Origin: Candidatus Sulfotelmatobacter kueseliae
GTDB lineage: Bacteria > Acidobacteriota > Terriglobia > Terriglobales > Acidobacteriaceae
Assembly: GCA_900290255.1 (NCBI GenBank)
Contig: OMOD01000148.1
Location: forward strand, 1-61,198
Direction: 5' to 3'
DNA length: 61,198 nucleotides
The notes beneath the pieces are model-generated. The model saw nothing but the letters and a program-made list of their open reading frames with translations, made no database searches and was not told the DNA's origin. Below are positions 29,843-54,054 of this stretch, one piece after another; position 1 is the first letter of the stretch; the number at the start of each line of letters is the position of its first letter. The position numbers and the translations under genes are program-made.

Positions 29843-31333
<1,491 letters not shown>

Positions 31334-36804: not shown

Positions 36805-38211
36805 GCAATCCGGGCAACAGGTAAGTAACTCCGAAGAAGGTGAACATCACCACGGCAAAGCCGAGAATCGCAAAGTAAGCGGCGCGCCGTCCCCGCCAGC
36901 CGCGCGTAATGCGCATGTGCAAATAGCCAGCGTACACCAGCCAGGTAATCGCCGCCCACGTCTCTTTGGGATCCCAGTTCCAGTAGGAACCCCAGGCCCG
37001 GTTGGCCCAGTAGGCCAGGCCCGGTTGGCCCAGTAGGCGCCGGCGGCGATCATCAGGGTGAGCAGGGGGAAGGCAATACAGATCGTTTTGTAAGTAATTC
37101 GGTCGAGCGCGTCGGCGTCGGGCAAATGCCGCTCCAGATCGGGCCGCCGCCACAGCAGAAGTAGATACAGCAGATTCGCGAAGATGCCTCCGACCAGCGC
37201 CGACAGAATGAACGGGCTCGCCGCCAGGCTCGTTTGATACAAGCCCTCGGCATCGAGCGAGGGATACTGTCCGTCACGCGCTCGCAGCAGGAAGAAAACC
37301 AGTGCCAATATCTGCAGCAGAATGCTGATGAAGACCGCGCGGTTGGCAATGGCAAGGAAGTGGTCGTTCTTTTTCAACCGGAACACGACGTACAACACCA
37401 GCGGCGCCGCCACTGCGGCAAATACCAGCAGCATCATCCAGCCCAGGTCGGGGATGGTGACGAACAGCCGCACGCCGCGCGAAATGAAAACTTCGCTTTT
37501 GTTCTCGGCGTCCCAGGCCACCACGTTGAGCCCGCCCCATCGTTCAAAGCGGCTCAGGACGGCGGCGTAAATTCCGACCGTGAACATGCTGGTCGCCGCC
37601 AGAAAACTTTCGGTTCTCATCTTGTCCTGGATCAGAAACATCATGGCCAGCGCGAAGCTGAGGGCGCAGGCTGCGTAGGCCAGCATGGCCAGCGTCACAT
37701 GCACATGCAACCAGGTGGATTGCAGCGCCGGGACCAGCGGGTGCACTTCGGTGCGCAGAAGCTGCATCAGCACCACGCCGACAATCGCCACCGGCATGGT
37801 CACCGTTCCGATGACTTTCACACCATAGCGCTTTTCCGCGATCAGCGTGAGTGCGGCCAGAGTCCAGACGAAACTCAGCAGCATTTCATAAATGCTGGCG
37901 AACGGCGGGTGTCCGGCTTCGTACCACCGGTGTGCCACCGCCAGCGTGTTGGCGACGAGTCCGGCCCAGGTGGCCAGGGAGGCGAACTTGATGTACGAGT
38001 CGGTCGCGGTCACACCGAAGCCCAGATATAACGCTCCCGCGCCGGCGTAGAAGATCAGGGCCGCATAGAGCATGTTGGATTCATTCAAAATACTGCCTGA
38101 CTTCACCACGTTCAAAAACGCCATGAACAGCAGAAACGCAATGCTCAGTCCGACCAGAACAATCAGGGTCGTGCCGGTTGCAGGTTGCTGTTCCGCTCGT
38201 GCTCGTGCCAT
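36791..38211 (-). pseudogene. ccsA: Cytochrome c synthetase subunit CcsA (ResC), frameshifted in the WWD domain
   Basis: The first 390 or so residues are an intact CcsA-type membrane protein with about ten hydrophobic segments. At AYWANRAW the frame is broken by an exact 23-bp tandem duplication (36992-37037). The in-frame product ends at 36847 with a nonsense tail. The other frame carries the pristine remainder, including [12 protein letters not shown], the WWD heme-handling motif, and ends HAYA at 36791, just where the kinase gene starts. Removing one copy restores a normal protein. CcsA with ResB ligates heme to exported cytochromes c, which this window has in number, so a true loss would be costly; recent mutation, phase variation or an assembly error are the options. 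Confidence 0.85.
36992..37037. repeat. Exact 23-bp tandem duplication inside ccsA
   Basis: Two identical, adjacent 23-base units (36992-37014 and 37015-37037). The unit encodes YWANRAW on the minus strand. As 23 is not a multiple of three the duplication shifts the frame. Confidence 0.95.
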
Positions 38212-38233: not shown

Positions 38234-39688
38234 TCACCTCCCGGTCGTGGTTGTGGCCTGTGCCTGGGCAGAGGCCACGCCTGTGGGTTTCAATTCCTTC
38301 TTGATCTGTTCCACCAAGTTTTTGAATCTCTCTTCGAAGGCATCGCGATTGCGGTTGGCTGTGCCCCCCACCCAGAGGGCCAACTGTCCGTTGCCGTTGC
38401 GCACCGGGACCGCCCAGAAGCGCACGTGGGAAACATAAAAGACAAACGTCAGGCCGATTGCCATCAGAATCACACCTGCCCAAACGGACCATTGTCCGGG
38501 CTCATGCGAGACTTGCAGCCCGGTGAAGACTTCGGGCGTCAGATCCTTCGGCTCGAAGATGTAGGGGGAAGACGCATTCTCGCCGACACCGGGAATCTCG
38601 GGCAGCCATACATTCACGCTGCGGGTGTCCTTTTTCGAGGTCACAATCAAGTGTACCGCGGGGTTGAGCACGTCGTTGCTGCGGGAGTAGACGTTGCCAT
38701 CCTGGACAACGTAATCCGGAATAAACTCCGCCAACTGCACGCTGGTATCGGCATCAAGGGCTACCGTCTGGTTGGGCGCCAGGGAGATTTTCTTCGGCGG
38801 GCCGATTGCGCCCTTGGCAGGAGTCGCGCTAAGGACTAATTGATCAAGCTTTCCTGTCTGTCCCCAACTTGCTTGGTAGAAACGCACGCCCTCATAGACC
38901 AGCGGATCGTTGACGACAATCTCCTTGCGCTGGACTTCGCTCCCATTGTCGATCACGGCGAGCTTTGACCACCAGCGCTTGGGAGTGCCGTCGGTATAGG
39001 TCTCTTCGCCAGTTCCGTCGCAGCGGATGGAGAAGGGCAGCGTACGGGTCGCGCCGTTCTTGAGCTCGATCTGATTGCTCGCCGTGCCGGGATTCAGCAC
39101 CAGGAATCCGCGCCAGCCGTAGAGAGCATCCACGACGCCGTAACCCAGGAAAATCAGCAGCAGGCTGGCATGAACCATGTAGACCGCCATTTCGGAGATG
39201 CGGTTGCGCTCCGAGAACAACGAGAAACTGCTGGTATGCACGATCCGCTCCGACCTCAGCCCCAGGTGTTTCAAAGCGCGCTCTGCCGCGCTGAGTCCGT
39301 CCTCTTCGTCGGAGATCGGAATCTGCGCCTGCGTGGGCAGGGCCTTGCGAAAATGCTCGTCAGGACTCTTGTAGGGCCGCGCGAAGAAGCGCCAGGAATT
39401 CGGAAAACGCTGTATTGACGCGGCGACAATGCACAGGCTAACCAGGACCAGCAGCGCAATGAACCAGTAAGTATGAAAGACGTCAGTCAGCCCCGCAGCG
39501 TCAAGAAAGCGCAGCATGGTCGGCGAGTAAGCGCGTTGCATGTCGTCGGCATCGGTCATCGGACGCTGCAGAATGACGGTTCCTGCGATCGAAAAAATGC
39601 CGACCAGGATAATCAGAATAACGCCCGTCTTGATGGAGCTGAGGGTCAGCCAAGTTTTTCGGGACACGGAACGAAGTGACAAGGCCAT
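38234..39688 (-). CDS. resB: Cytochrome c biogenesis protein ResB
   Basis: 484 residues. ATG 39688 is preferred (GAGGAAGAGGAAAG upstream; the longer frame adds 19 unrelated residues). Three N-terminal membrane helices (GVILIILVGIFSIAGT; TYWFIALLVLVSLCIV; YMVHASLLLIFLGYG), a large periplasmic domain (about residues 190-410, YEGVRFYQASWG) and a final helix near 425 are the ResB/Ccs1 plan. Together with CcsA (22 bp downstream) it forms the system II heme lyase. A CRP/FNR-type site lies 200 bp upstream. Confidence 0.93.
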   Translation of the reverse strand: MALSLRSVSRKTWLTLSSIKTGVILIILVGIFSIAGTVILQRPMTDADDMQRAYSPTMLRFLDAAGLTDVFHTYWFIALLVLVSLCIVAASIQRFPNSWRFFARPYKSPDEHFRKALPTQAQIPISDEEDGLSAAERALKHLGLRSERIVHTSSFSLFSERNRISEMAVYMVHASLLLIFLGYGVVDALYGWRGFLVLNPGTASNQIELKNGATRTLPFSIRCDGTGEETYTDGTPKRWWSKLAVIDNGSEVQRKEIVVNDPLVYEGVRFYQASWGQTGKLDQLVLSATPAKGAIGPPKKISLAPNQTVALDADTSVQLAEFIPDYVVQDGNVYSRSNDVLNPAVHLIVTSKKDTRSVNVWLPEIPGVGENASSPYIFEPKDLTPEVFTGLQVSHEPGQWSVWAGVILMAIGLTFVFYVSHVRFWAVPVRNGNGQLALWVGGTANRNRDAFEERFKNLVEQIKKELKPTGVASAQAQATTTTGR

Positions 39689-40142
39689 GTCTTTCCTCTT
39701 CCTCGGGTGTAGCAGAATGCACGTTCCGCGCCAATGTGGGGACATTCCAGCAAGTCATTTAGGATCAATACGTTGAACTTGAGGCTTTCAAGGCGCGGCG
39801 AGGTCTTCTGTGAGCTATAACACTCATTTTCGCGGTGCTCTGCTGCGGTTTTCACCCACCGGTGCGCATCCACTGCCAGAAAAGTGAGTGATTTAGGTCA
39901 CACGAGATTAAGCGCAGACGCCCGGGGAGTCGGTAGTACTACCTAATGCAGTAACCAGGGGTCCGGGGCTTACGTGCGTCTTTTCACCAATGACAGTGTG
40001 GCAGAAGGCCCATTCCGCCCGTTGTAACCTCGTGTTGTGGAAATTTGCAGCACCCCATCCAGCCGAGACAAGTCTGTCTGCTGCAATCAGTTACAGTCGG
40101 CAAGACGATTAGCATCCCTCCCACCAACTTAAGGAATGGCTC
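39689..40142. promoter_or_regulatory. Divergent control region between resB and the multiheme cluster
   Basis: Contains AGTGATTTAGGTCACA (39889-39904), with GTGA-N6-TCAC spacing, and a perfect palindrome GGTAGTACTACC (39934-39945). AAGGA at 40134-40138 is the ribosome site for the 16-heme gene. No further gene is seen in these 454 bp. The first site is about equidistant from resB and the 16-heme gene, so it could control both. Confidence 0.5.
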
Positions 40143-41720
40143 GTGCACATGCAAGGGTTGCCGATGGTCCTAAGAGTTCCAAATCGTACCCTCCCGGTAA
40201 TCAAGGCCACGTTTCGGCAGACCCACGTCCCTCGTCTTCCGCTAATGGCAGCTTTCGTGGTTGCCCTGGCGGTGCTGCCGGCAGCGGCCAAAACCCACCC
40301 GGTTCCGCTCGACAAGAACGTGGATTCGGCGAAGTGCCTGGAGTGCCACGAAGACAAGTCAAAAGGCAAGGCGGTCCACTCGGCCATCGCCACGGGATGC
40401 CTGAGCTGCCACGAAGTGCGCGTCAACAGAGACGTCACCCGGGTGAAGCTGACGACCACCACGACCCAAGCCCTCTGCCTCAGTTGCCATGACGACAAGA
40501 AGGTGCAAGCCGGACAGACGATGCACCCTCCGGCGGTTCGCGACTGCGTGAAGTGCCATGATCCGCACCAGTCGGCCAACCCCAATCAGCTGCGGCTGGC
40601 GACGACGGGAGAGACGGGAAAAGAGAATCTCTGCCTCAATTGCCACAACATCGGTTTGAACACTCCGAAAGATGGCAGCCGTCACGCGGCGCTCGACATG
40701 GGCTGCGACACCTGCCACGTCACGCATAAGAACGGCGAGCGGGGAAAGATCGAATTCGCGGCCCACCTGAAGAAAGATGTTCCGGCCCTCTGCCTCGGCT
40801 GCCACGACGCGAAAGACGCCGCGCTGCAGAAAGCGCACCAGGGACAGCCCTTCGGAGCGGCGAACTGCATTCAGTGCCACAACCCGCACGAGTCCGCCAA
40901 GCCGAAGCTGATGCAGACGTTCCTGCACAACCCGTTTGAGAACAAGATGTGCGACAGCTGCCACCAGGCGGCGAAGGATGGGAAAGTTGTCCTGACGAAT
41001 GCCGATAGCCGCGCGCTCTGCCTGACCTGCCACGATGACAAGGGAAAGCAGATCGAGACGGCGAAGGTGCAGCATCCGGGCGCGGCGGGCGAATGCGTTG
41101 CGTGCCACAACCCGCACGCCGGAAAATCCCCGGGCTTCCTGCAACCGGATCCAGTCACTGCTTGCCTGGCCTGCCACAGCGATCAGGCGGATCAGATGAA
41201 GAAGGCGCAGCTGCACCAGCCGGCAGCGGTCCAGGGTTGCGCGACTTGCCACGAGCCGCACGGTGGCGAGAACGAGCACCTGCTGCGCGCAGCGAGTCCG
41301 AACAAGCTTTGCCTCGAGTGCCATGGGCCGGATTCCAAGGTGCAGAAGCTCGAGAGCGAGCACCTGGTCTCGATTTTCGACGGCAAGGTGAAGCTGCCTG
41401 AGCTCTATTTCAACAAGGTCACCGTGCTGCCCATCAAGTACGGCCGCGGCCACCCAGTAGAGAATCACCCGATCAGCGACGTAATGGATCCGTCGGACGT
41501 GACCAAGATCCTGCAAGCGATGAACTGCCTCTCCTGCCACCAACCGCATTCCTCGGCGCAGCCGAGCCTGTTGGTCAAGGACCAGCCGAACAACATGGCG
41601 TTCTGCATGAGCTGCCACACGAACCTGGTGGGGGGACTGGATAAGGGGGCCGCGCCGAAAGGGCAGCCGCAGAACGCGCCACCCAAGGGCGGCGATCAAC
41701 CCAAAGCGATTCAGAAATGA
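40143..41720 (+). CDS. 16-heme c-type cytochrome (doubled-CxxCH family)
   Basis: 525 residues with sixteen CxxCH motifs (first at residue 65) and many HxPH/CHxPH pairs such as CVKCHDPHQS, CIQCHNPHES, CVACHNPHAG and CATCHEPHGG, the doubled-CxxCH repeat type. A signal sequence ends VLPAAAKT near residue 50. GTG 40143 has AAGGA 4 nt upstream; ATG 40149 and 40164 are alternatives. The C-terminus is a Pro/Gly/Lys-rich tail. Expected in the periplasm or threaded through an outer-membrane barrel, wiring electrons outward. First gene of the cluster, overlapping the NHL gene by ATGA. Confidence 0.93.
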   Translation: MHMQGLPMVLRVPNRTLPVIKATFRQTHVPRLPLMAAFVVALAVLPAAAKTHPVPLDKNVDSAKCLECHEDKSKGKAVHSAIATGCLSCHEVRVNRDVTRVKLTTTTTQALCLSCHDDKKVQAGQTMHPPAVRDCVKCHDPHQSANPNQLRLATTGETGKENLCLNCHNIGLNTPKDGSRHAALDMGCDTCHVTHKNGERGKIEFAAHLKKDVPALCLGCHDAKDAALQKAHQGQPFGAANCIQCHNPHESAKPKLMQTFLHNPFENKMCDSCHQAAKDGKVVLTNADSRALCLTCHDDKGKQIETAKVQHPGAAGECVACHNPHAGKSPGFLQPDPVTACLACHSDQADQMKKAQLHQPAAVQGCATCHEPHGGENEHLLRAASPNKLCLECHGPDSKVQKLESEHLVSIFDGKVKLPELYFNKVTVLPIKYGRGHPVENHPISDVMDPSDVTKILQAMNCLSCHQPHSSAQPSLLVKDQPNNMAFCMSCHTNLVGGLDKGAAPKGQPQNAPPKGGDQPKAIQK

Positions 41721-42979
41721 CGACGAATCTCAAATACGCCGGGCTCCGGACCATGATGCTGCTGATCTGCGGGCTGCTCTGCCTCAGCCTGATGACTCCG
41801 GCATCGCTGGCAGCGGACAAGAAGAAGAAAGCGAAGGCCGAGCAAGCCCCGAAGGGGTCCGCGCTCTGGGACTCGATCGATTTCTCCAAGGCCGTATGGC
41901 CGAACCCGCCAGCTCCCACGCGGATTAAGTACCTGAACTACTTCTGCTGCGACAAGTACGTTCCGCCAGCCTCGAAAAAGACTTCGTGGATGGATCGCAT
42001 GGCGGGCGCCCAGTCGGAGCAGCAGGCGCAGGCGGAGCACCCGCTGTACGCGTTGTGGACGCCCTACGGATTGGCGGTGGATTCGAAAGGCACCCTCTAC
42101 GTTGCCGACGGCAAGGTGGGCGCGGTGTTCATGTTCAACACCGAGACCAAAGACATCAGCATGATCAAGAACGGCGTGAATGCGCGCTTCGGTGATGTGA
42201 TGGGCCTGGCGATTGACGACTCCGACCGCCTCTTCGTCTCCGACACCAAGCTGCACCGCATCCTGGTGTTCGATAAGAACCACAAAGTAGAAGGCTCGAT
42301 CAGCCAGGGCGTACAGGATCCGACCGGCATGGTGGTGGATAACGAGAACCGCTTTCTTTATGTGGCGGACCCGGGACAGGATGTGGTTTTCGTCTACGAC
42401 GCCGACAATTTCAAGTTGCTCCGCACGCTCGGCACGCCGGGCAAGAGTCACACACTTACCGAGCCAGGCCAGTTCGCGGTGCCGACCAACGTGGCGCTGG
42501 ACGAGGACAACAACCTCTACGTTACCGATACCTTCAACAACCGGGTCGAAGTTTTCGATGCGGACGGCAACTTCATCCGCGCCTGGGGCAAGGCGGGCGA
42601 CATTCCGGGCAGGTTCATGCGGCCGAAGGGAATTGCGATCGATGTGGACGGCCATGTGTGGGTGGCTGACGCCATGGCGGATCGGGTGCAGTGCTTCACG
42701 CAGGAAGGCCAGTTGCTGATGTGGCTGGGTGGTCACGGCGAGTGGCCGGGTTACTTCCAGACTCTGGCTGGCCTGTATATCGATAAGAACAATCGCATGT
42801 TTACCTCCGAGCAGTATCCCGGACGGGTGCAGATGTTCCGCTACTTCACCGATGACGAGGCGAGGGCGGAGCTGGCGAAGCGGAAGGCGGAGGAAGACAG
42901 GAAGAAATCCGGCACGAAGCCAACCGGGGCGTCTGCGGCGCCCCCGGCAACAGGTTCTGCGGCTGCAAAGCCGCAATAG
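41717..42979 (+). CDS. Exported NHL-repeat beta-propeller protein
   Basis: 420 residues: signal peptide (LLICGLLCLSLMTPASLA), a Lys-rich linker, a segment with a Cys pair (LNYFCCDKYVPP), and then about six NHL repeats of the form PxGLAVD-G-LYVAD (residues 110-390), ending in a disordered Glu/Lys and Ala/Pro tail. NHL propellers usually act as protein-interaction platforms. It lies between the 16-heme and 4-heme genes, and a second NHL protein is encoded near the other end of the cluster, suggesting structural parts of one assembly. Translationally coupled to the upstream cytochrome. Confidence 0.85.
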   Translation: MTTNLKYAGLRTMMLLICGLLCLSLMTPASLAADKKKKAKAEQAPKGSALWDSIDFSKAVWPNPPAPTRIKYLNYFCCDKYVPPASKKTSWMDRMAGAQSEQQAQAEHPLYALWTPYGLAVDSKGTLYVADGKVGAVFMFNTETKDISMIKNGVNARFGDVMGLAIDDSDRLFVSDTKLHRILVFDKNHKVEGSISQGVQDPTGMVVDNENRFLYVADPGQDVVFVYDADNFKLLRTLGTPGKSHTLTEPGQFAVPTNVALDEDNNLYVTDTFNNRVEVFDADGNFIRAWGKAGDIPGRFMRPKGIAIDVDGHVWVADAMADRVQCFTQEGQLLMWLGGHGEWPGYFQTLAGLYIDKNNRMFTSEQYPGRVQMFRYFTDDEARAELAKRKAEEDRKKSGTKPTGASAAPPATGSAAAKPQ

Positions 42980-43061
42980 AGTTTGGCCGTTCCGCGGATG
43001 GCCAAACCGGGGCCGGTTCACTCCGGCTCCGGGCAGCAAAACGGCAGTACTCGGCTATAGA

Positions 43062-43077
43062 TGTAACAGCTGTTACA
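43062..43077. promoter_or_regulatory. Perfect 16-bp palindrome just upstream of the 4-heme gene
   Basis: TGTAACAGCTGTTACA, a complete palindrome ending 20 bp before ATG 43098. CAGGAGG at 43081-43087 follows immediately and is the strongest ribosome site of the cluster. The sequence CTATAG just before it could be a -10 element. Likely an operator giving this gene its own control. Confidence 0.55.
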
Positions 43078-43097
43078 AAACAGGAGGTTTTATTTTT

Positions 43098-44210
43098 ATG
43101 AGAAAGACGATGTTACTTGTATTCGTGGTTCTGCTCGCGGCGGCATTCGCTTTTGCGGCACCGCCTCCAGCCAACAACGCTACGTGGTTGAACGTAACCA
43201 TCTCGAACACCCCGTCGACGACGTCGGCGACGGGCTACACCTCAGGAACGGGCCTGACCGGGTATGACGTCCTGGGTGCCCATAACAACGGCGGCCGCGG
43301 ATGCGCGGGCTGCCATGCTCCGCACAGCGGCGCGGCGGGCGGCGGCGGCAACGCCGTGACTGGCGGCGGAACCGACAACCTCTCCGGCAGCAACGCGCTG
43401 TTCGGACAGGACGTCAGCCCGCTGTTCGGCGTGACGTTAACGTTCGCATTGGACGGCGGCATTGTTGAAAACCTGCCAAGCCAGGCCGCTGCCTACACCA
43501 CCAACACCGACGAACTGCGGGGAATCATGATGTGCCTGGCGTGCCATGACGGCGCGATCGCCAAGGGGCAGATGATGAACGGCGTTTCGTGGGAGCAACG
43601 GATGAACCTGCTGCCCTCCAGCGTTTATGGACCGCACGGGATCCCGACGCTGCTGGGCAACGACAGCGGCGACGGCAACGTCTCCGGCTATGGCAACGAT
43701 CACCCGGTGGGCACCAACGCTACTTTCGCGGCCGCCGGTCTGGTCAGCACGGGCAACCCAGCCACGGATCCACTGAAGGTGACGTTTGACACCAACAACG
43801 GGATCACGGCCATTGCGCCGCAAAGCGCGGCGTACGTCCAGTTCGCCCTGAACTACGGGTACCCGGCGATTGCCGGCACCGCGTGGGACTGGGGCTTCCA
43901 TGTGCCCAATGGCGCGACCGATGTTTCCACGGCCTTCATGACCTGCACCACCTGCCACAACCAGCACGTGATGTACATCTACAAGGCCCCGCCTTACTAC
44001 GGTTTTGGCGCCGACCACAGCATGACTGGCCTCGCCAAGATCGCTGGCGGGACCTATCCGACGTACTTCTTCGTGAACGGTCCCTACAACCCGGGCGCTG
44101 GCAACAACGACCCGACGAAGGCAGCATCGACGACTCAGTTCTGCCGTCAGTGCCACTTCGACACCTCGAACGAGTCTCTGGGAGTCAACTCTGTCCAAAC
44201 GCAGTTCTAA
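43098..44210 (+). CDS. Tetraheme c-type cytochrome, candidate extracellular/filament cytochrome
   Basis: 370 residues. A clean signal peptide (MRKTMLLVFVVLLAAAFAFA) is followed by four CxxCH motifs at C69 (CAGCHAPHSG), C146 (CLACHDG), C283 (CTTCHNQH) and C349 (CRQCHF). Seven other His (62, 76, 180, 202, 268, 290, 307) are available as distal ligands, enough for bis-His hemes. Long stretches rich in Gly, Asn, Thr and aromatic residues separate hemes, unlike the heme-dense 16-heme protein. Segment DVLGAHN before heme 1 is shared with the 12-heme protein downstream. Strong AGGAGG, an upstream palindrome and a terminator right after the gene suggest high independent expression. The filament role is inference only. 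Confidence 0.9.
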   Translation: MRKTMLLVFVVLLAAAFAFAAPPPANNATWLNVTISNTPSTTSATGYTSGTGLTGYDVLGAHNNGGRGCAGCHAPHSGAAGGGGNAVTGGGTDNLSGSNALFGQDVSPLFGVTLTFALDGGIVENLPSQAAAYTTNTDELRGIMMCLACHDGAIAKGQMMNGVSWEQRMNLLPSSVYGPHGIPTLLGNDSGDGNVSGYGNDHPVGTNATFAAAGLVSTGNPATDPLKVTFDTNNGITAIAPQSAAYVQFALNYGYPAIAGTAWDWGFHVPNGATDVSTAFMTCTTCHNQHVMYIYKAPPYYGFGADHSMTGLAKIAGGTYPTYFFVNGPYNPGAGNNDPTKAASTTQFCRQCHFDTSNESLGVNSVQTQF

Positions 44211-44219
44211 CTCAGCAAA

Positions 44220-44253
44220 CGGGGGAGAGGGTTTCTCTCTCCCCCGATTTTCA
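44220..44253 (+). terminator. Hairpin terminator between the tetraheme and PpiC genes
   Basis: CGGGGGAGAG (44220-44229) pairs with CTCTCCCCCG (44237-44246), 7-nt loop, then ATTTTC. The weak T-run suggests partial read-through into the downstream genes. Confidence 0.65.
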
Positions 44254-44283
44254 AGACTTGCAGGCAGGCAGGAAGGTTCGGCG

Positions 44284-45360
44284 ATGAAAAAGCAAGGCAA
44301 GAGCGCAGTGTGGAGTGGAGTGGCGTGGATGGCGGTGGCCCTGACGTGCGGGGCGCAGGTGGTGGCCTCGCATGCCCCGGCCCTGCCCACGACGCCGGCC
44401 CCAGCGGCGGCTGCGGCGCCTGCGACCGGCAACGGTCCCGCCCCGGCGAATCTTGCGGTGCTGGCTCCCGCCAAGCCGGTGGCGAAGGTGAATGGCACGG
44501 TGCTGACGGACCGCGACCTGGCACGTGAAATCCAGCAAATTTTCCCCTACGAGAAGACGCACAACGGCATTCCCAAAGGAATGGAACCGGAGATGCGCAC
44601 CGGCGCCCTGATGATGCTCGAGTTCGAGGAACTCGTGTACCAGGAAGCGCTGCGGCGAGGAATGACCATTTCCCCGGAACGGCTGAAAAAGGCGGAAGCC
44701 GCATTCCGCAAACAGTTTTCGAGCGAGCAGGAGTTCAAGCAGGTGATGCAGTTGGAAGTAAACGGATCGGAGCAGAAGATGCGCGAGAAGATCCGGCGCT
44801 CGCTGCTGATTGACGACCTGCTGAAGAGCGACGTAACCGACAGGGCGAAGGTTTCGGAAGCCGCGGCGCTTGCCTATTACCACCAGAATCCCAAGAAGTT
44901 CCAGCACGGCGAGTCGTTCAGCATTCAGACGATTTCGATTATTCCTCCGGCCAATGCCAGTCCGGAGGTGCTGAAAGAGGCGAGTAAGCGCGCGGACGAC
45001 GCCCTGAAAGCCGCGAAGGCAACCAAGAGCTACAAAGAGTTCGGGCTGGTGGCAGAAAAGATGTCGGACGACGACTGGCACGTGAACATGGGCGACCGCA
45101 AAGTGGTGGAGCGCGATAAACTTCCCCCTCCAGTGGTGCAGGCAGCACTGGCCATGAAAGCGGGGCAGGTGAGCGATCTGATTCAATTGGGCAACGCCTA
45201 CACCCTGTTCCGGTTGAACAAGCATATTCCAGCGGGCGTGACTCCGTTTGACGAGGTGAAGGCCAAGCTGATGACGGACCTGGCGAAAGAGAAGAACGAC
45301 CGCCTGCGGGCAGATCTGAACAAAAGGCTGCGGAAGACGGCAAAGATCGAGGAACTGTAG
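44284..45360 (+). CDS. Periplasmic peptidyl-prolyl isomerase (PpiC/SurA-like)
   Basis: 358 residues: N-terminal signal, Ala/Pro-rich linker to residue 60, a SurA-N-like helical region (VAKVNGTVLTDRDLARE; MMLEFEELVYQEALRRGMT) and a parvulin-type domain (about residues 205-320, FSIQTISIIPP, MGDRKVVERDKLPPPV, GQVSDLIQLGNAYTLFRL). A chaperone for outer-membrane barrels or for exported cytochromes is the likely role. Located directly between the tetraheme and the barrel gene, so it may be dedicated to this cluster. Confidence 0.88.
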   Translation: MKKQGKSAVWSGVAWMAVALTCGAQVVASHAPALPTTPAPAAAAAPATGNGPAPANLAVLAPAKPVAKVNGTVLTDRDLAREIQQIFPYEKTHNGIPKGMEPEMRTGALMMLEFEELVYQEALRRGMTISPERLKKAEAAFRKQFSSEQEFKQVMQLEVNGSEQKMREKIRRSLLIDDLLKSDVTDRAKVSEAAALAYYHQNPKKFQHGESFSIQTISIIPPANASPEVLKEASKRADDALKAAKATKSYKEFGLVAEKMSDDDWHVNMGDRKVVERDKLPPPVVQAALAMKAGQVSDLIQLGNAYTLFRLNKHIPAGVTPFDEVKAKLMTDLAKEKNDRLRADLNKRLRKTAKIEEL

Positions 45361-45392
45361 TCATCGAGCGTGGGGCAGAGACCAGGTGGGTG

Positions 45393-47243
45393 ATGTGGAC
45401 GCGGTGGATGCACAACTCGGGGCGGTTGCTGGCGGTGATCTTCGTGGCCGTGATGCCGGCGTGGGGGCAGTTGGAGATCGGCAACGACTGGATGTTGGGC
45501 CTCAACGGCAATCTCGGGTATGCCTACAGCGGTAGCCTGGTGAATGGCGGGTCTTCCCATGGCCAGGGTCTTTATGGGGACGTCAATCTACGCGGCAGTT
45601 TTTATAATCCGAATTTCCTGAACTTCAGCGTCTCTCCCTATTTCGGCCGTTCGCAGTCGAACAGCAGCTTCGGGAGCCTCGGCTACAACGATGGCGTTAA
45701 CGCGGCTGTGAATTTATTTGGCGGCAGCCACTTCCCGCTCGGCATTAGCTACGGACGGGGATCGAACAATACCAGCGAATTCGGCATGCCTTCCTCGACG
45801 GTAGGCCTGGCGCAAACGGGCGACACACAAATGTGGGGAATCACTTGGGCCGAGGTTCTGCCCAATTTGCCTATGTTGAACGTGAACTATTCGATTGGGG
45901 ACCAGTCCAACGAAATCGTCGGGGTTTCGGGCGACAACAAGGAGAATTCGAAGATCCTCTCTCTGTTCTCGACTTACCAGATTCACCGTTTCGCTATGTC
46001 CGCCGGCTTCACTCACCGGAACGTTGATACCTCGTTCTCGGAAGATCTGACCGGGAACGAACTGCCGTCTGACGTCAGTGGGGCAAGCAATGACTTTCGC
46101 GCCAGTGTTGGCCATCCGCTGCCGCTCTCGGGATCTTTCGCCGCGAGTTACGACCACACGAATTACGGCTTCAACTATCACGACGGGACTCGACAGAACA
46201 CGGATGGAGCTTCGAGCACGCTCAACGGGAGTGCCAGCTTCCATCCCTTTCAGAAGTTCTCTTTCGGCTCGAGCGCCAGTTACAGCGACAGCGTTCTGGG
46301 CGTACTGCCGGATTCGGTGGTCAATGGAGCCGTGCAGGATTTGAGCCAGGGTGCGTTCCGCAATTACATTGTGACGACCGTGGCCAACTATCAACCACTC
46401 AGGAATCTGGGGGTGAATGGCTCGGTGGCCTACGCGCGGCAGGATTTTCTGGGGATCAGCCACAGCACCACGCAATACGGAGGCGGCATCAACTACGGCC
46501 TGGAGCACAGGTTCCTGGGATCGTTCTCGTTCGGCCTGTCGGCCTTCGATTATGCGAACCAGTATGGCAACAATGGCATGGGATTCACCGGAAACCTGAA
46601 CTTCAACCGGAAGATCAACGGGTGGGAGTTAGACGGAAACTTCGCCTATGAGCAGAACGTGCAGACGCTGTATTCCGTGTACACCACCTCGGGTTACAGC
46701 TGGGTGAGCAGCGTGCGGCGTCGCATGGCGAACCGAACCCATTTTATTGCCGGGTACGGCGGATCGCACAGCGGATTCTCCGGCGGCTCCGGCAGCAGCA
46801 ACGTTTCCGAGCGGGTATACGGAACGGTCATCTGGCACGAATACAATCTGAACGGGTTTTATTCGAAAGCCGACGGGACATCGATCTTTACGCCGACGGG
46901 GATGGTGGCTCTTCCGGGAAACCTGCCTCCGGGAATGCTTCCTGCCAATTTGATCGCGATCTACGGAGCGAAGGCGGTCGGGGCGAACCTGGGCGGCGTT
47001 TTCATGCACAAGCTTACCTTCGGCGTGGGGTATTCTGATTCCACCGGCACCTCGGTGATGCCAACGTTGGACCTCGATACCCACACAACGTTGTACACCG
47101 GTACCTTCCAATACCGGCTGCGCAAGATCTACCTGAACGGCGGATTTACGAAGCTGCGCCAGGCCGTCGGCACGCCGGGTACACTGCCAGTGGACCTGAC
47201 AACGTACTATATTGGATTTACGCGATGGTTCAACTTTTTCTGA
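45393..47243 (+). CDS. Outer-membrane beta-barrel protein of a putative porin-cytochrome conduit
   Basis: 616 residues. Signal peptide ends VMPAWGQ. The remainder is a succession of amphipathic strands (alternating small/polar and aromatic residues, for example FNLSVSPYFG-like and YGGGINYGLEHRFLG) consistent with more than twenty strands, and it ends in a strand with terminal FNFF, the barrel-assembly C-terminal Phe. No cysteine heme motif. Size and place between cytochromes resemble MtrB-type or Geobacter OmbB-type barrels, although I cannot claim sequence homology by eye. ATG 45393 is preferred over GTG 45390. The stop overlaps the next gene by 19 bp. Confidence 0.82.
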   Translation: MWTRWMHNSGRLLAVIFVAVMPAWGQLEIGNDWMLGLNGNLGYAYSGSLVNGGSSHGQGLYGDVNLRGSFYNPNFLNFSVSPYFGRSQSNSSFGSLGYNDGVNAAVNLFGGSHFPLGISYGRGSNNTSEFGMPSSTVGLAQTGDTQMWGITWAEVLPNLPMLNVNYSIGDQSNEIVGVSGDNKENSKILSLFSTYQIHRFAMSAGFTHRNVDTSFSEDLTGNELPSDVSGASNDFRASVGHPLPLSGSFAASYDHTNYGFNYHDGTRQNTDGASSTLNGSASFHPFQKFSFGSSASYSDSVLGVLPDSVVNGAVQDLSQGAFRNYIVTTVANYQPLRNLGVNGSVAYARQDFLGISHSTTQYGGGINYGLEHRFLGSFSFGLSAFDYANQYGNNGMGFTGNLNFNRKINGWELDGNFAYEQNVQTLYSVYTTSGYSWVSSVRRRMANRTHFIAGYGGSHSGFSGGSGSSNVSERVYGTVIWHEYNLNGFYSKADGTSIFTPTGMVALPGNLPPGMLPANLIAIYGAKAVGANLGGVFMHKLTFGVGYSDSTGTSVMPTLDLDTHTTLYTGTFQYRLRKIYLNGGFTKLRQAVGTPGTLPVDLTTYYIGFTRWFNFF

Positions 47244-48331
47244 GGCCGGCGGCAAAGAGAGGCACACATCCTGGGGCCGGGCTGGTGATAACAGTATTTC
47301 TACTGTTGACTCCGGGATGGGCCGCGAAGGTGCCCCGCGAGAAGGTGGCGGAGCCTGCGCCTCCGGATCTGCTGTTGGAGGGAGGGCGCAAGCTGCACTA
47401 CGAACGCAGCTTCAGCTCGGAAAAGGAAGTCGAAGGCAAGCGCGGCTTCTTCAAGAAATTAGTAGATATCGCGATCGGCGAGCCGGATCATCCGCACCTG
47501 GTGCGTCCTTACAGCATCGCGATCGATTCGCGGGGCCGGGCGATTGTGACGGATCCGGGGGCGAACGGCATCCACATCTTTGACTTCGAAAATCATAAAT
47601 ACAAGTTCATCGAGCGCCGGGAGAAGGATAAGGATCAGATGCAAGCGCCGCAATGCGTTGCGGTGGACGCGCAAGACAATATTTATGTGACTGACTCGCT
47701 GGCCGGCAAGGTGTTCGTGTTCGACGCCGGGGGAAAATTCCGGCGGGCGATCGGCAGTCTGAAGGGCGGCGAGGGCTACTTCAAGCGGCCGACGGGAATC
47801 TCGGTGGATTCGGCGGCGCAGAGGATCTACATCACGGATACGCTGCGCGACAAAGTGTTCGTGCTCGATATGGAGGGAAGCATCCTGCGGACGATCGGGA
47901 AACGCGGGACCGCCGAAGCAGAGTTCAACCTGCCGACCGAAGTTCTGGTGCGCGATCAGAAGCTGATGGTCGTGGATGCGATGAATTTCCGGGTGCAGTA
48001 TCTGGATCAATCGGGCGCATTTCAGGGGCAGGTGGGCAGCGTCGGCGACACGAACGGAACGATGTTTCGGCCCAAAGGAATCGCGATGGATTCCGAGTCG
48101 CACCTTTATGTGGTGGATGGCTTGTGGGGCGTGATTCAAGTTTTCGATGAGCAGGGAAGACTGCTTTATTACTTCGGGAGCCGAGGGACGGGTAGCGGAG
48201 AGTTCCAGCTGCCGACGGGATTGTTCATCGATCATGCCGATCGAATCTTCGTAGTGGACTCATTTAACCGGCGCATCCAGGAGTACCGCTATTTCGGCTT
48301 GCCGAAGCAGGCTCGGGAGGGCGGTCAATGA
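47225..48331 (+). CDS. Second exported NHL-repeat beta-propeller protein
   Basis: 368 residues: signal (LVITVFLLLTPGWA), a Pro/Glu linker, then six NHL-type blades between residues 90 and 355, each with a PxxIAVDxxGxIYVTD-like core (QAPQCVAVDAQDNIYVTD, FRPKGIAMDSESHLYVVD). Overlaps the barrel gene by 19 bp and the 12-heme gene by 4 bp, the tightest coupling in the cluster; barrel, propeller and 12-heme protein are probably made in fixed ratio. Role likely structural or docking at the outer membrane. Confidence 0.87.
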   Translation: MVQLFLRPAAKRGTHPGAGLVITVFLLLTPGWAAKVPREKVAEPAPPDLLLEGGRKLHYERSFSSEKEVEGKRGFFKKLVDIAIGEPDHPHLVRPYSIAIDSRGRAIVTDPGANGIHIFDFENHKYKFIERREKDKDQMQAPQCVAVDAQDNIYVTDSLAGKVFVFDAGGKFRRAIGSLKGGEGYFKRPTGISVDSAAQRIYITDTLRDKVFVLDMEGSILRTIGKRGTAEAEFNLPTEVLVRDQKLMVVDAMNFRVQYLDQSGAFQGQVGSVGDTNGTMFRPKGIAMDSESHLYVVDGLWGVIQVFDEQGRLLYYFGSRGTGSGEFQLPTGLFIDHADRIFVVDSFNRRIQEYRYFGLPKQAREGGQ

Positions 48332-50214
48332 GAAGACTGCTGCTCATCGGCACGTTGCTGGTCTCGGGTCTGCTGGCGCAGGCGCAGGTGACCTCCGATG
48401 TGCTGGGGGCGCATAACTTGTCAGCGTCAGGAAGTTCGCCGATCAAGGGAGGACTGGACCCGTGCATGTATTGTCATGTGCCGCATTCGGGAGTGGGGAC
48501 GCCGAATCCCGCGCTGTGGAGCCAGACGCTCTCCACTCAGCCCTATTCCACCTATGCGAGCACGACCCTCCACAACAGCAGCGAACAGCCGACTGCTGGT
48601 GCCGATAGCAGCCTGTGCCTGAGCTGTCACGATGGAACGGTCGCGGTGGGCCAGACCCAGCCCTTCGGGCAGATCAAGATGACCGGGAACATGAATGTCA
48701 CCGATGTGTTCGGGACAAACCTGCAAAAATCGCATCCGTTCAGCATGAAGACGCCGCTGCAGGATGCGCCCGATCTAGTGGCGTCGTTAGTGGCCAGTCA
48801 TAAGACGGATGATCCGCTGGGAGCGGTGAAGCTGATCAACAATGACGTGGAGTGCACGAGCTGCCACTCGCCGCATGTGCAGGCGATCGACACTCTGTCG
48901 AAAAACTTTTTGGTTCGCGACAGTTCCAGCGGGCAACTATGCACGTCGTGCCACGAAACGAACGCTCGAACGATCGGCGGGCAGAGCAATCCGCTGGCGG
49001 GATGGTCGGCGAGCATTCATGCGACCGCGGGAAATGTGATTGCGAATCCGCCTCTGTTGGGTAGCTACCCGTCGGTCGCGCGGAACGCCTGCCTGTCGTG
49101 CCACATGCCGCACAATGCGATGGTGGGAGCCAGATTGCTGCGGGGACCGAATCCGCCGGTTCCGAATTTGGACTCAGCGACGCAGGACTGTATGACGTGC
49201 CACAATGGCGGCTCGAACATCACGCCGGCGATTCCCGACATTTATTCGGAGTTCACCAAGATCGCGCATCCGTATCCCAACCAGGGGAACGCGCACGATG
49301 CGGGAGAGGCGGCATTGCTGAACATGAACCGGCACTCGACCTGCGTCGACTGCCACGGACCGCATAGCTCGATGGCGGTGACTTCCTTCAGTACCGTTCT
49401 TCCCCCTCCAACGATTCGACCATCGCAAGCCGGAGCTTTGGGGATCAGCGCCACGGACGGGACGACCGTGATGAACCCCGCCGTGAATCAGTACGAAAAT
49501 TGTCTACGCTGCCACGGCACGAGCACCGGCAAGCAAACGCAGATCGTCTTCGGATACCTGCCGATGCGTGCGGTGGCCGCCAACGACCCTCTGAATCTTA
49601 TTCCGCAGATGAGCGCGTCGGCGACCTCCAGCCATCCCGTGATGCACGACAGGAACAGCGCTTTGTTGCAGCCCAGCCTGTTGACCAGCATGCTGAATCT
49701 TGATGGGAAAACTCAGGGACGGGGCATGGGGACACGCATTTATTGCACCGATTGCCACAACAGCGACGATAACCGCGAATTCGGTGGAATCGGTCCGAAT
49801 GGACCCCACGGGTCAAAGTGGCTGCACATCCTGGAGCGCCGTTACGAATTCAGCCAGGCCCCGGGACCGGGACAGCGAGTGACGAATCTGTTTCCAAACC
49901 CGGATCTCACTGTCAATGGACCGTACGCGTTGTGCGGCAAGTGCCATGATCTATCGAGCCAGATCATTGCCAATACGAGCTGGACGCAACACTCGATGCA
50001 TATCAACGCGGGATTCAGTTGCTCTACCTGTCACACGGCGCACGGCATGGCGCCGAGCAGCGGAAATCTGACCGGCGAACGTTTGATCAACTTTGACTTG
50101 AAGGTAGTCGCACCCTACGCCGGGTTGCCGGTCAGCTACAATCGCGGCACTGGCACGTGCGCCTTGGTCTGCCATGGGACCGTGCATAACCCCAACGGCA
50201 CAGTCACACCGTAA
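48328..50214 (+). CDS. 12-heme c-type cytochrome (11 CxxCH plus one CxxxCH)
   Basis: 628 residues. Signal peptide ends LLAQAQ. Eleven CxxCH motifs are spread along the chain (CMYCHVPHSG, CLSCHDGT, CTSCHSPH, CTSCHET, CLSCHMPH, CMTCHNG, CVDCHGPH, CLRCHG, CTDCHN, CGKCHD, CSTCHTAH), and a twelfth atypical CALVCH lies near the C-terminus. Heme density is lower than in the 16-heme protein, with loops rich in Asn/Ser/Pro, as in cell-surface decaheme-like cytochromes. The N-terminal DVLGAHN segment is shared with the tetraheme. Translationally coupled to the NHL gene. Likely the outer-face or extracellular cytochrome; this location is an inference. Confidence 0.92.
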   Translation: MRRLLLIGTLLVSGLLAQAQVTSDVLGAHNLSASGSSPIKGGLDPCMYCHVPHSGVGTPNPALWSQTLSTQPYSTYASTTLHNSSEQPTAGADSSLCLSCHDGTVAVGQTQPFGQIKMTGNMNVTDVFGTNLQKSHPFSMKTPLQDAPDLVASLVASHKTDDPLGAVKLINNDVECTSCHSPHVQAIDTLSKNFLVRDSSSGQLCTSCHETNARTIGGQSNPLAGWSASIHATAGNVIANPPLLGSYPSVARNACLSCHMPHNAMVGARLLRGPNPPVPNLDSATQDCMTCHNGGSNITPAIPDIYSEFTKIAHPYPNQGNAHDAGEAALLNMNRHSTCVDCHGPHSSMAVTSFSTVLPPPTIRPSQAGALGISATDGTTVMNPAVNQYENCLRCHGTSTGKQTQIVFGYLPMRAVAANDPLNLIPQMSASATSSHPVMHDRNSALLQPSLLTSMLNLDGKTQGRGMGTRIYCTDCHNSDDNREFGGIGPNGPHGSKWLHILERRYEFSQAPGPGQRVTNLFPNPDLTVNGPYALCGKCHDLSSQIIANTSWTQHSMHINAGFSCSTCHTAHGMAPSSGNLTGERLINFDLKVVAPYAGLPVSYNRGTGTCALVCHGTVHNPNGTVTP

Positions 50215-50429: not shown

Positions 50430-53400
50430 CTACTGTACGGTCAACTTCACCACCGCGATCGGGACCGGATTGGGCTGGACCGAAGTTGTCCCTTGCACCT
50501 GGATGTTGTAGCTGATCGGATTTTGGGTAGAAGACGAGTTGGATCCCCCGCAGGCCATGAGGGTCAACAGAGGAAGAATCATCAAGGATGCTACGAGTGA
50601 GCGGCGCCCTCGGCGACGCGTGCCAGCGAGCAGGAAAATTCCCACTGCCCCGAAACTCCAAAGCATGCTAGCAGCCAGCCATTTGTGGTTGTTTCCGCTC
50701 GGGTTATTCCGCAGAAACGCGGCGGCTGGCGGTACGGTCACAGCCAGGCCGAAGGAACTGTCGATGGATGGCGTGATGGCGGTCGGCGTAAAAGTGCAGG
50801 AAGCGCCGGAAGGGAGGGAACTCTGTAGACAAGAGAGCGTGATCGCGTGACGGGGGTCGCCAGTGTTGGCCTTGAGGGCTAAAGAGAAGTTGGCCGTTCC
50901 TCCCGGAGATACAGTTTGTGGCGTGGGCGTTGATGTTGCGAGCGCAGTTACGATCGTGACCGGGTACGAGCCCGAAACGGTTGCATCGGCCTGCGAGACC
51001 GCGGTGATGGTCACGAGCGCGGGCGAAGGCACGGCGCTGGGGGGAGTGTAATTGCCGTTGCTGTCGATGGTGCCAATGACGGAGTTGCCGCCGGAGATAG
51101 CGTTAACTTCCCAATTCACGGCAGTATTGGTTTCTCCACTGACGGTGGCGACGAAAGCTTGCGTGATCGATGTGTAGACCACGGTGACGCCCGAGGGATT
51201 CGTACTGACACTGATCGCGCCTGCACCGCTGGCGGCGATGGTCACTGAGGCCGAGGAGAAAGTCGTGCCGTTGGCATCGGAGACGGCGGTGACCGATATG
51301 GCAGACGCGGGGGCCGCGGCCGGGGCCTGATAAAGGCCGCCTGAGGTAATGGTGCCCACGGTCGAGTTGCCTCCCGTGATTCCATTTACTTGCCAGGTGA
51401 CATTTCCGTTGCTTGCGCCGGTCACCGTAGCGAGAAACTGTTGTGTCCCGCCGACCGCTAAAGTGGTCGCGGGAGGCACAACTGCGACGGTGACCGTGGA
51501 TGTGAGCTGGCGAACGCGTGAGCTCTCGCTGTCGGCGACGAAGATCCCCGCGCTGCCGAGAGAGATACTTTCCGGGACATCGAGCAACGCACTTGTGGCT
51601 TGGCCGCCATCTCCAGAGAAGCCGGAACTGCCGGTGCCGGCGATCGTCTCAATGGTCGAGTCGACGGCGACGACTTCTCGGATGGCAGAGTTTTCGGAGT
51701 CGGCGATGAAGATGTTGCCCAAGGAATCGACGGTGACTCCGGTGGGGACATTCAAAGTCGCGCTGGTCGGAGCGCCGTTATCGCCGGAATAGCCAAGTCT
51801 GCCCAGTGATCCAGCTACGGTAGTAATGTCCCCAGCGTTGATTGTGGTGCCAGCTACAGTGACGGCTTGCGTCGAGGGGTTGACGACCCGGACGGCGGAG
51901 TTCTGCGAATCTGCGATGTAGATATTGCCGGCGGAATCCAGCGAAACGCCAATCGGAAAACCCAGAGAAGCCGCGCTGGCCAAACCGTTATCGCCGCATC
52001 CGGTGCTGGAGTCGGGACAGGCGGTGGGCGGTGTTCCCGCCACGGTCTGAATGGTATTCGGCTGGATGGTCAATCCTCCGATCGTGAGCGCTTGCGACCC
52101 GGTATTTACGACGCGCAGGGCGGAGTTGTCGGTATCGGCAATATAAATGTTTCCCGATCCATCGAGGAATAGACCCTGCGGGTTGCTAAGTTGCGCGCTG
52201 CTAGGTGCTCCTCCGTCGCCAGCAAAGCCGGAAGTACCCAGCGTTCCCGCCACCGTCTGGATCGTTCCCGCCGCGACAGTGGTTCCGGCGATCGTGATTG
52301 CTGAGCTTCCGACGTTGACTACGCGAATAGCCGAGCTCTCGCTCTGGGGCAGTCCCGTTTCCGCGACGTAGATGTTGCCGAAGGAATCGACGGCCACGGC
52401 GGAGGGAAAATTCAGTTGGGCGCTGGTGGGCGAGCCGCCATCTCCGCAAGCTCCGGGCACGATGGGCACTGCGCAAAGCACACCATTGCCGGCCACGGTT
52501 CCAATGTCGCCCGCATTGATGGCTATTTGGCCGATAGTAACGGGCGCGCCCCCCGGATTGAAGACGCGAATGGCCGAATTATACGTGTCGGCGATATAGA
52601 TAAGTCCAGCGGTGCTCACAAAGAGATTGCTGGGGAAGGCAAGTTGGGCGTTGGTCGCGACGCTACCGTCGCCGGAGTAAGCAGCGGTATTGTTGCCCGC
52701 GAGGGTCTGAATAATGCCGGTGGAGGCGACCTGACGGATGACGTAGTTCTCCGTGTCAGCAATCAGGATATTTCCGGAAGCATCGAGGGAAACGCCATTG
52801 GGAAAATTGAGGGTCGCGGCGGTGGCCGCAGCGCCGTTTCCGGAGTAACTGAATTTACCGGGACTGCCGGCGATGATCTGGATGTCTCCGGCGGGGATGG
52901 AAACTCCGGCAATCATGACAGGCGCAGCGCTGGGGTTGACCGCGCGAATGATCGAGTTCAGAGTGTCGGCGATGACAATGTTCCCTGAGGCGTCGACATA
53001 AACGCTGAAGGGAAGGCACAGCTGAGCGCTAGTCGCCGCGCCTCCATCACCGGAGTAGTTGCAAGTGCTGGCGTACTTGTAATAGCTACCCGCCACCGTC
53101 TGAATATTGCCGTTGGCGGCGGTTACTTCGCGAACGACCGAGTTCAACGTATCGGCGATGAAAACATTTCCTAAAGCATCGACGAATACGCCGTGGGGTT
53201 GGTCGAGCTGGGCGGAAGTAGCGGCGGCTCCGTTGCCCGAGTAGCCGGCGCCGGCTGCGAAGTTGCCTGCCACGGTTTGAATGTTGCCAGCAGTTACTTC
53301 GCGGACTACGTTATTTTCGGTATCAGCGATAAAGATGTTCCCAGAAGCATCGACAAAGACTCCATAGGGCTCGTTGAGTTCCGCCGCGGTCGCCGCGCTG

Positions 53401-53852: not shown

Positions 53853-54054
53853 GCTCAGCCTCCAGCGCAGGGTATGGCAATTCACTAAGGATCGACCTAG
53901 CCCCAGAGCGAAACAGGCGAGGCGAGGGGTGGCCTTCCTCAGTGTCCCCAATTCTACAGTCTGCAAGCGCGCAAACCGCAAAGCCAATCGCGCTTTGTTT
54001 CTTCACAATAGGAGTGCACGGCAGCCGATCACAGCTCTCGATGTCACAAGTGAT

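Follow-up and report, generated by a model that had tools for sequence, protein, structure and literature searches.

Do seven adjacent genes of an acidobacterium, three of which encode multiheme cytochromes, form a conduit that carries electrons across the outer membrane, and if so, of which kind and in which direction? The question is raised by a contig of 61,198 nucleotides from Candidatus Sulfotelmatobacter kueseliae (OMOD01000148.1, assembly GCA_900290255.1), hereafter the window, which is part of a 5.39 Mb assembly of 198 contigs with a completeness of 96.1% and a contamination of 8.46%. Acidobacteria dominate many soils according to PMC3669403, and little is known about their electron exchange with humics or minerals, a setting in which a fixed seven-gene cluster is a clear marker and a target open to testing. 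The conduit cluster is genuine and strongly conserved, with related loci in many families of the phylum, and it is likely to be a porin-cytochrome conduit of the undecaheme electron transfer (Uet) type, in which an MtrAB-like core would be joined to surface cytochromes of the OmcE type.

Gene layout and the barrel-cytochrome core

In the list of open reading frames, the seven genes all lie on the forward strand and span positions 40143-50214 of the window. In 5' to 3' order, they encode a c-type cytochrome with 16 hemes (40143..41720, exact start uncertain), a six-bladed NHL propeller (NHL1, 41717..42979), a 4-heme cytochrome (43098..44210, with 43098 as the preferred start, MRKTMLL...), a SurA-like chaperone with a parvulin peptidylprolyl isomerase domain (PpiC, 44284..45360), a predicted outer-membrane beta-barrel of 617 residues (45390..47243), a second six-bladed NHL propeller (NHL2, 47225..48331) and a 12-heme cytochrome (48328..50214). 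Coordinates overlap by 4 bp between the 16-heme and NHL1 genes, by 19 bp between the barrel and NHL2 genes and by 4 bp between the NHL2 and 12-heme genes, while CXXCH motifs number 16, 4 and 11 in the 16-heme, 4-heme and 12-heme genes, respectively. An earlier sequence-only reading of this DNA had described seven genes on one strand with these products and with start/stop overlaps, and the reading frames, the motif counts, the Pfam matches and the three overlaps bear it out. Promoter or terminator signals exceeding shuffled controls were not found at the locus. Porin-cytochrome conduits are generally characterized by a large barrel encoded with several multiheme cytochromes, and here a predicted barrel stands in one run with cytochromes of 16, 12 and four hemes.

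The barrel protein gave no Pfam or NCBIfam match at E values up to 0.1. An AlphaFold2 model built with a 60-sequence alignment (predicted local distance difference test, pLDDT, 80; predicted template modelling score, pTM, 0.57) comprises about 28 long strands, which start at residue 8 of the mature form and thus leave no apparent room for a plug domain. The sequence-only reading had named a non-barrel prediction as one of the results that would speak against a conduit, and the prediction is instead of a large barrel, which by its strand count could fit a cytochrome-holding porin. When the model was compared with the PDB by Foldseek, the top match was 6r2q_B (MtrB, E 3.9e-9); in VIA-align, solute and siderophore receptors matched as well as MtrB, which was not singled out.

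The partner of the barrel in the core would be the 16-heme protein. Its family profile has a sole PDB match at E <= 1e-6, namely 6r2q_A, at E 7.2e-24 and over profile positions 225-390. This chain is the cytochrome of the Mtr complex, which we take to be MtrA; in the search copy it bears the name 'Cystathionine beta-synthase', apparently a labelling error. On the DmsE/MtrA decaheme model TIGR03508, the protein, which carries 16 hemes, reaches 183.7 bits against a cut-off of 192.2, and on TIGR03507 it reaches 64.9 against 209.3. Besides the histidines of the motifs, an alignment of 63 homologs shows 17 further His with a conservation of 90% or above. The 16-heme protein thus appears to be MtrA/DmsE-related, with a probable location in the periplasm and/or inside the barrel.

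Kinship of the 12-heme and 4-heme cytochromes with OmcE

The last gene of the run contains, in addition to its 11 CXXCH motifs, one CX3CH (CALVCH) whose Cys611, Cys615 and His616 do not vary among all 14 aligned homologs, so that the count of 12 hemes given by the sequence-only reading holds. The profile of this family matches 7tfs at E 8.3e-30 over profile positions 7-210, the structure being that of OmcE according to PMC12954529. The single sequence matches 9yuq (E 8.5e-14), an entry with 16 chains of 'putative multiheme cytochrome c', and the best PDB match of the profile other than 7tfs and 9yuq has an E of 1.5e-7. By profile comparison, the 12-heme protein opens with a module that shares homology with the full length of the nanowire protein OmcE. 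The other two thirds of the protein, with eight hemes, align to tetraheme profiles no better than the multiheme background. In particular, a second OmcE-like module in the middle third (96.5%) was considered and rejected, as controls with the 16-heme family reach 97.3% and 97.2%, and the last third reaches 63% against a tetraheme profile. The 12-heme protein also matches Pfam PF22113 (MtrC/MtrF domain II/IV) with 57 bits against a cut-off of 30, and gives no match to TIGR03507 (OmcA/MtrC decaheme). A lipobox is absent from the window copy, and a lipobox-like motif is present in 2 of 83 homologs.

The kinship of the 4-heme protein with OmcE is more distant and is bridged by the tetrahemes of sister clusters described below. 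Four such stand-alone tetrahemes, taken together as a profile, match OmcE at E 1e-23, 9yuq at 1e-22 and OmcS at 0.85; like the N-terminal module of the 12-heme protein, they are homologous to OmcE of Geobacter sulfurreducens (7TFS) over its full length. The profile of the 4-heme family itself matches 9yuq at E 5.9e-8 and 7tfs at 0.57. Aligned by hhalign with OmcE-like tetraheme profiles, it scores 99.6% and 99.0%, and this link was retained because the control against the 16-heme family scores 68%. Single-sequence PDB searches with the 4-heme protein or with the sister tetraheme of the host (L125) found no cytochrome. A Foldseek comparison of the 4-heme model with the PDB gave no usable match, and the monomer model is too poor to serve, so that sequence profiles are the basis of the OmcE link.

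Within the 4-heme family, only four free His beyond the four motif His exceed 90% conservation, and they are kept in 84, 83, 84 and 84 of 84 homologs. The window protein thereby shares with OmcE the four CXXCH and the four distal His positions, and all eight heme ligands appear to be kept, the free His being the probable distal ones. In OmcE and OmcS, as described in PMC9473688, the heme ligands are under strong selection while the loops are free, and one heme is ligated across the subunit border. The 4-heme protein differs from OmcE in being about 140 residues longer (370 versus 232), with inserted loops, and in being recognised only via profiles. Taken together, the profiles and the sister tetrahemes suggest that it is a divergent relative of OmcE and a candidate nanowire subunit.

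Conservation and spread in Acidobacteriota

The recurrence of the locus was assessed by scanning named bacterial genomes with the NHL2 profile, which confirmed 177 relatives; the best 80 loci were analysed, all of them titled as metagenome-assembled genomes and, as judged by eye, belonging to 78 assemblies. The nearest named relatives by NHL2 are Acidobacteria (Acidobacteriaceae, Terriglobia, Candidatus Sulfotelmatobacter), and genomes titled as assembled from bog, fen and palsa account for many of the 80 loci. All seven genes are called together in 54 of the 80 loci. The same order is found in 43, two of which (L072, L093) have a second, tandem 4-heme gene, while in 11 the pair of 16-heme and NHL1 genes is shifted downstream, in 8 of these 11 with an additional 4-heme gene on the opposite strand in between. 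A further 22 loci are cut by contig ends, defined as fewer than 1700 bases of contig left or fewer than 600 right, and three of them (L063, L071, L075) also miss the call of an inner gene. The remaining 4 lack a called part: the barrel in L079, the 16-heme and NHL1 genes in L040 and L088 within the stretch examined, and NHL2 in L092, a frame or calling fault given that this locus was recovered through NHL2. The gene-order conservation on which the sequence-only reading had made its proposal depend is therefore observed, in the identical order as well as in the rearranged form, and given the recurrence across the 80 loci the seven-gene arrangement is far beyond chance.

Heme number is near-constant as well: 16 hemes are counted in 56 of 58 copies of the 16-heme protein, four in 77 of 81 copies of the 4-heme protein, and 11 CXXCH in 75 of 80 copies of the 12-heme protein. 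Homolog sets exclude frames cut by contig ends or falling under length limits; the 4-heme alignment holds 63 of 70 listed references (84 homologs) and the barrel alignment 59 of 60 (73 homologs), while the other alignments (A6-A13) are handpicked subsets of 10-14 sequences, or 4 in the case of A12. Judged by local identity to the window copy, five close relatives differ most in the barrel (28-32%) and the 4-heme protein (36-44%), less in the 12-heme protein (48-58%) and least in NHL2 (58-65%) and the 16-heme protein (60-70%). Several loci (L072, L093, L025, L053, L054, L078 and others) carry additional 4-heme genes, which lie in tandem, farther downstream or on the other strand, as if multiple filament-type subunits were retained.

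The accessory proteins are equally recognisable. The isomerase carries the Pfam domains SurA_N (SurA_N_3) and PPIC-type rotamase (Rotamase_2), and its profile matches SurA structures with a best E of 1.7e-15. Both propellers contain Pfam NHL repeats, NHL1 with 86 bits and NHL2 together with DUF5128 at 85.5 bits, and on visual inspection the N-terminus of NHL1 resembles a signal peptide. NHL1 is 45-71% identical in ten relatives and 34-35% in the sister clusters L125 and L131, while NHL2 is 49-65% identical in 6 relatives. In searches of plasmids, NHL2 retrieved generic propellers only and a sister 12-heme protein gave no match. The propellers are constant partners of the cluster, for which a scaffold or assembly role may be supposed.

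For the distribution in the phylum, searches based on the barrel found few relatives (7 of 297 and 9 of 396, three of the nine being partial and one of these, G293, having no nearby cytochrome cluster), and a 14-row profile of the 12-heme protein was therefore used against 396 Acidobacteriota genomes. Matches at E <= 1e-20 occur in 53 of them, and matches covering at least 500 of the 622 profile positions in 28 genomes from 12 families, three of the genomes (G082, G311, G335) with matches that read through a stop. Loci from this genome set are not independent of the 80, as the contigs of L019, L020 and L021 appear, by their length, to be those of L064, L073 and L095. In 16 of 23 annotated cluster loci (L125, L131, L022 and 20 more), the 12-heme gene is accompanied by NHL genes, a barrel-sized frame and a tetraheme. 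Frames in these wider loci were called barrels from their size, a low number of cysteines and an aromatic residue at the C-terminus, and in some cases from size alone. The order NHL, tetraheme, (PpiC), barrel-sized frame, NHL and 12-heme is found in 9 of the 23 loci, and the order tetraheme, NHL, 5-heme, barrel, NHL and 12-heme in 7, with L173 arranged alike but lacking a separate barrel; an additional 3-heme gene is found in L182, while in L172 and L175 this arrangement lies on the other strand. The remaining loci are truncated, more complex or without a called tetraheme. Five of the 23 loci contain PpiC, and the heme number of the first cytochrome ranges from 5 to 21. In one locus (L022:2297-4150, genome G073), the 12-heme gene adjoins a gene of 618 codons for a 23-heme cytochrome, and a second OmcE-like tetraheme lies beyond.

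A sister cluster is present in the host assembly itself (G000, contig C136, L125:2076-9725), where genes for a 7-heme cytochrome, an NHL protein, an OmcE-like tetraheme, a barrel of 621 residues, an NHL protein and a 12-heme cytochrome follow each other without PpiC. Elsewhere in the host genome, three genes with 9-10 CXXCH (L126:5878-9288, L127:4486-7870, L128:6228-9618) are each followed by a frame of 716-818 codons. These pairs look like the MtrA/MtrB type without an outer cytochrome, in an assembly that is partly contaminated. Pfam gave no match in the large frames beside these decaheme-type genes, nor in two sister barrels.

Relation to known conduits, proposed mechanism and direction of flow

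The published system that comes closest is Uet (uetABCDEFGHIJ), described in Ca. Tenderia electrophaga and the Tenderiales and in some Gallionella, while UetJ and a porin are reported from genomes of the Leptothrix group. According to PMC10734462, it consists of an extracellular tetraheme (UetA), a peptidylprolyl isomerase (UetB), a barrel (UetC), the trihemes UetDEG, the NHL proteins UetHI and an undecaheme (UetJ). In PMC5371394, Tel_16515, 16520 and 16530 are trihemes, 16525 is a TPR gene and 16545 an undecaheme; we infer from this numbering that the Tel genes are UetD-G and J and that the Uet letters follow gene order. On that basis, the series of tetraheme, isomerase, barrel, NHL and undecaheme would be collinear with 43098-50214, the 4-heme, PpiC, barrel and 12-heme genes occupying UetA-, UetB-, UetC- and UetJ-like positions. 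Compared by published description, the two systems share a tetraheme, an isomerase, a barrel, NHL proteins and an 11-12-heme protein in compatible order. They differ in that the window has one MtrA-related 16-heme protein where Uet has three trihemes and a TPR protein, in that one NHL gene of the window lies upstream, and in the host, which belongs to the Acidobacteriota and is apparently heterotrophic. No triheme or TPR genes stand between the barrel and NHL2, since these two overlap, and the locus is therefore classed as a Uet-type variant and not as Uet proper. The parts list having been published, the cluster is best considered an acidobacterial variant of the Uet kind and not categorically new.

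The suggestion of the sequence-only reading that two NHL propellers plus PpiC may define a distinct system accordingly does not stand: Uet has the same parts, and a cytochrome operon of SEEP-SRB bacteria, with heme numbers of 26 and 16, also has genes for an isomerase and a beta-propeller alongside. Its proposal of a trans-outer-membrane conduit is well supported, and the respiration of metals, humics or partner cells that it ascribed to the conduit is a possible use; it missed the OmcE and MtrA kinships and the adjoining ResB and CcsA genes. What seems new is that the OmcE-like module of the 12-heme protein and the kinship of the 4-heme protein would tie the Uet kind to the OmcE nanowire family, a link that yields a specific hypothesis on the way in which filament and outer-membrane conduit could be joined. 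No description of the seven-gene cluster or of an OmcE-Uet link was found in the literature searched, which included few subscription papers and not the source paper of Uet.

With MtrCAB of Shewanella (6R2Q), the locus shares an MtrA-like cytochrome and a very large barrel. It differs in having 16 hemes instead of 10, about 28 predicted strands instead of the 26 of the Mtr barrel, an outer cytochrome that starts as an OmcE type and not as a member of the MtrC/OmcA family, and PpiC and propellers as extra parts. Identity with MtrCAB was rejected, as the barrel matches the MtrB/PioB family in fold only and the 12-heme protein gives no match to the OmcA/MtrC decaheme model TIGR03507. Syntrophic sulfate reducers have OetABI/OmcKL conduits whose outer OetB is described as a lipoprotein. 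These and the SEEP-SRB operon resemble the locus in placing a porin conduit with or near filament-type cytochromes, with an isomerase and a propeller nearby in SEEP-SRB; heme numbers differ, and identity with OetABI was rejected as the 12-heme protein has no lipobox. Within the phylum, conduits have been reported in Holophaga (PMC7399161) and MtrCAB in Acidobacteriia (PMC8805035), and a 16-heme protein of Koribacter is among the cytochromes matched in Arctic peat (PMC3669403).

In the mechanism that we propose, the 16-heme cytochrome would move electrons across the periplasm into the large barrel, where it probably docks, and the 12-heme cytochrome with its OmcE-like module would sit at the outer face. 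The 4-heme cytochrome, once exported, may lengthen the heme chain beyond the cell surface, probably in polymeric form, and the OmcE-like module of the 12-heme protein is perhaps where the filament is seeded. The SurA-like PpiC could be the periplasmic escort of the barrel, of the exported cytochromes or of both, the propellers may serve as scaffold or assembly parts, and the ResB/CcsA pair would attach heme. We tentatively suggest that a 4-heme nanowire docks on the 12-heme protein, such that one operon would encode an unbroken heme chain and its own chaperone next to genes for heme attachment; this specific form of the model is rather less secure than the conduit itself. If it is true, acidobacterial Uet-type clusters would be self-contained nanowire systems in many families of Acidobacteriota, and Uet and OmcE, described apart so far, would be one lineage. 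Two points weigh against the overall scheme. In Geobacter conduits, surface cytochromes change faster than periplasmic ones according to PMC12977616, and the 12-heme protein diverges more slowly than this rule predicts for a surface protein; as for the filament, the physiological role of cytochrome filaments is disputed (PMC11077965).

Concerning direction, no RuBisCO match was found in the host genome, the only route of CO2 fixation examined, and two haem-copper oxidase genes are present, which fits an apparently heterotrophic host able also to respire oxygen. On account of this weak evidence, we lean towards outward flow to Fe(III) or humics over uptake. The same complex might run inward and draw electrons from partner cells, minerals or Fe(II), a direction proposed for Uet in cathode-grown Tenderiales and in Gallionella. 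Indeed, the Tenderiales uet cluster is named for extracellular electron uptake in PMC12575090, and Uet is listed among possible iron-oxidation conduits in PMC10734462. The missing RuBisCO match and the undecaheme carrier reducing manganese that is cited in PMC13264449 speak against inward flow in this host, which we consider the less likely direction.

Apart from direction, the locus may be seen mainly as a cluster for nanowire export and assembly, with the barrel, propellers and isomerase secreting and shaping the 4-heme filament. A precedent would be the Geobacter osc (omcS-companion) cluster of Shen et al., in which a prolyl-isomerase chaperone, channel proteins and a beta-propeller are reportedly tied to a nanowire cytochrome; the osc cytochrome is the hexaheme OmcS and that of the window an OmcE-type tetraheme. 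The OmcE relationship of both the 4-heme and 12-heme proteins, the SurA-like PpiC and the additional 4-heme copies in a number of loci agree with such a function. As the main role of the locus it is nevertheless doubtful, given that the 16-heme protein is MtrA-related and so constant in heme number that a fixed conduit is indicated too, and that the dispute over cytochrome filaments applies here as well; the two readings are not exclusive. A purely periplasmic and outer-membrane respiration, in which the barrel would be a solute porin and the cytochromes an electron store or a reductase of soluble oxidants, could draw on the receptor matches in VIA-align and on the inferred localisation of the cytochromes, but is highly improbable in view of the large barrel without apparent plug, the MtrB and MtrA matches, the OmcE homology and the multiheme genes that surround the barrel gene in 54 of the 80 loci.

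The probable Uet-type conduit is accompanied by genes for cytochrome c assembly. ResB of System II (38234..39745, reverse strand; Pfam ResB, 268 bits) and a CcsA/ResC-type protein (36847..38211, reverse strand; Pfam Cytochrom_C_asm, 72.7 bits) form a pair that stands divergently beside it. A divergent ResB-CcsA pair is found in 25 of the 46 testable relatives among the 80 loci, and in 1 of the 23 wider loci, which is the sister cluster of the host (L125), so that both clusters of the host assembly are flanked in this way; the L125 proteins are 64% (ResB) and 81% (CcsA) identical to those of the window. ResB is regarded as a helper and not as part of the conduit. Farther upstream, genes for a sigma-54 response regulator and a HAMP histidine kinase lie on the reverse strand at 29843-31333 and 35533-36804 and are possible regulators. 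Downstream and convergent with the conduit, a protein of 1185 codons (50430-53987, reverse strand) shows by eye NHL-like repeats followed by immunoglobulin-like stretches.

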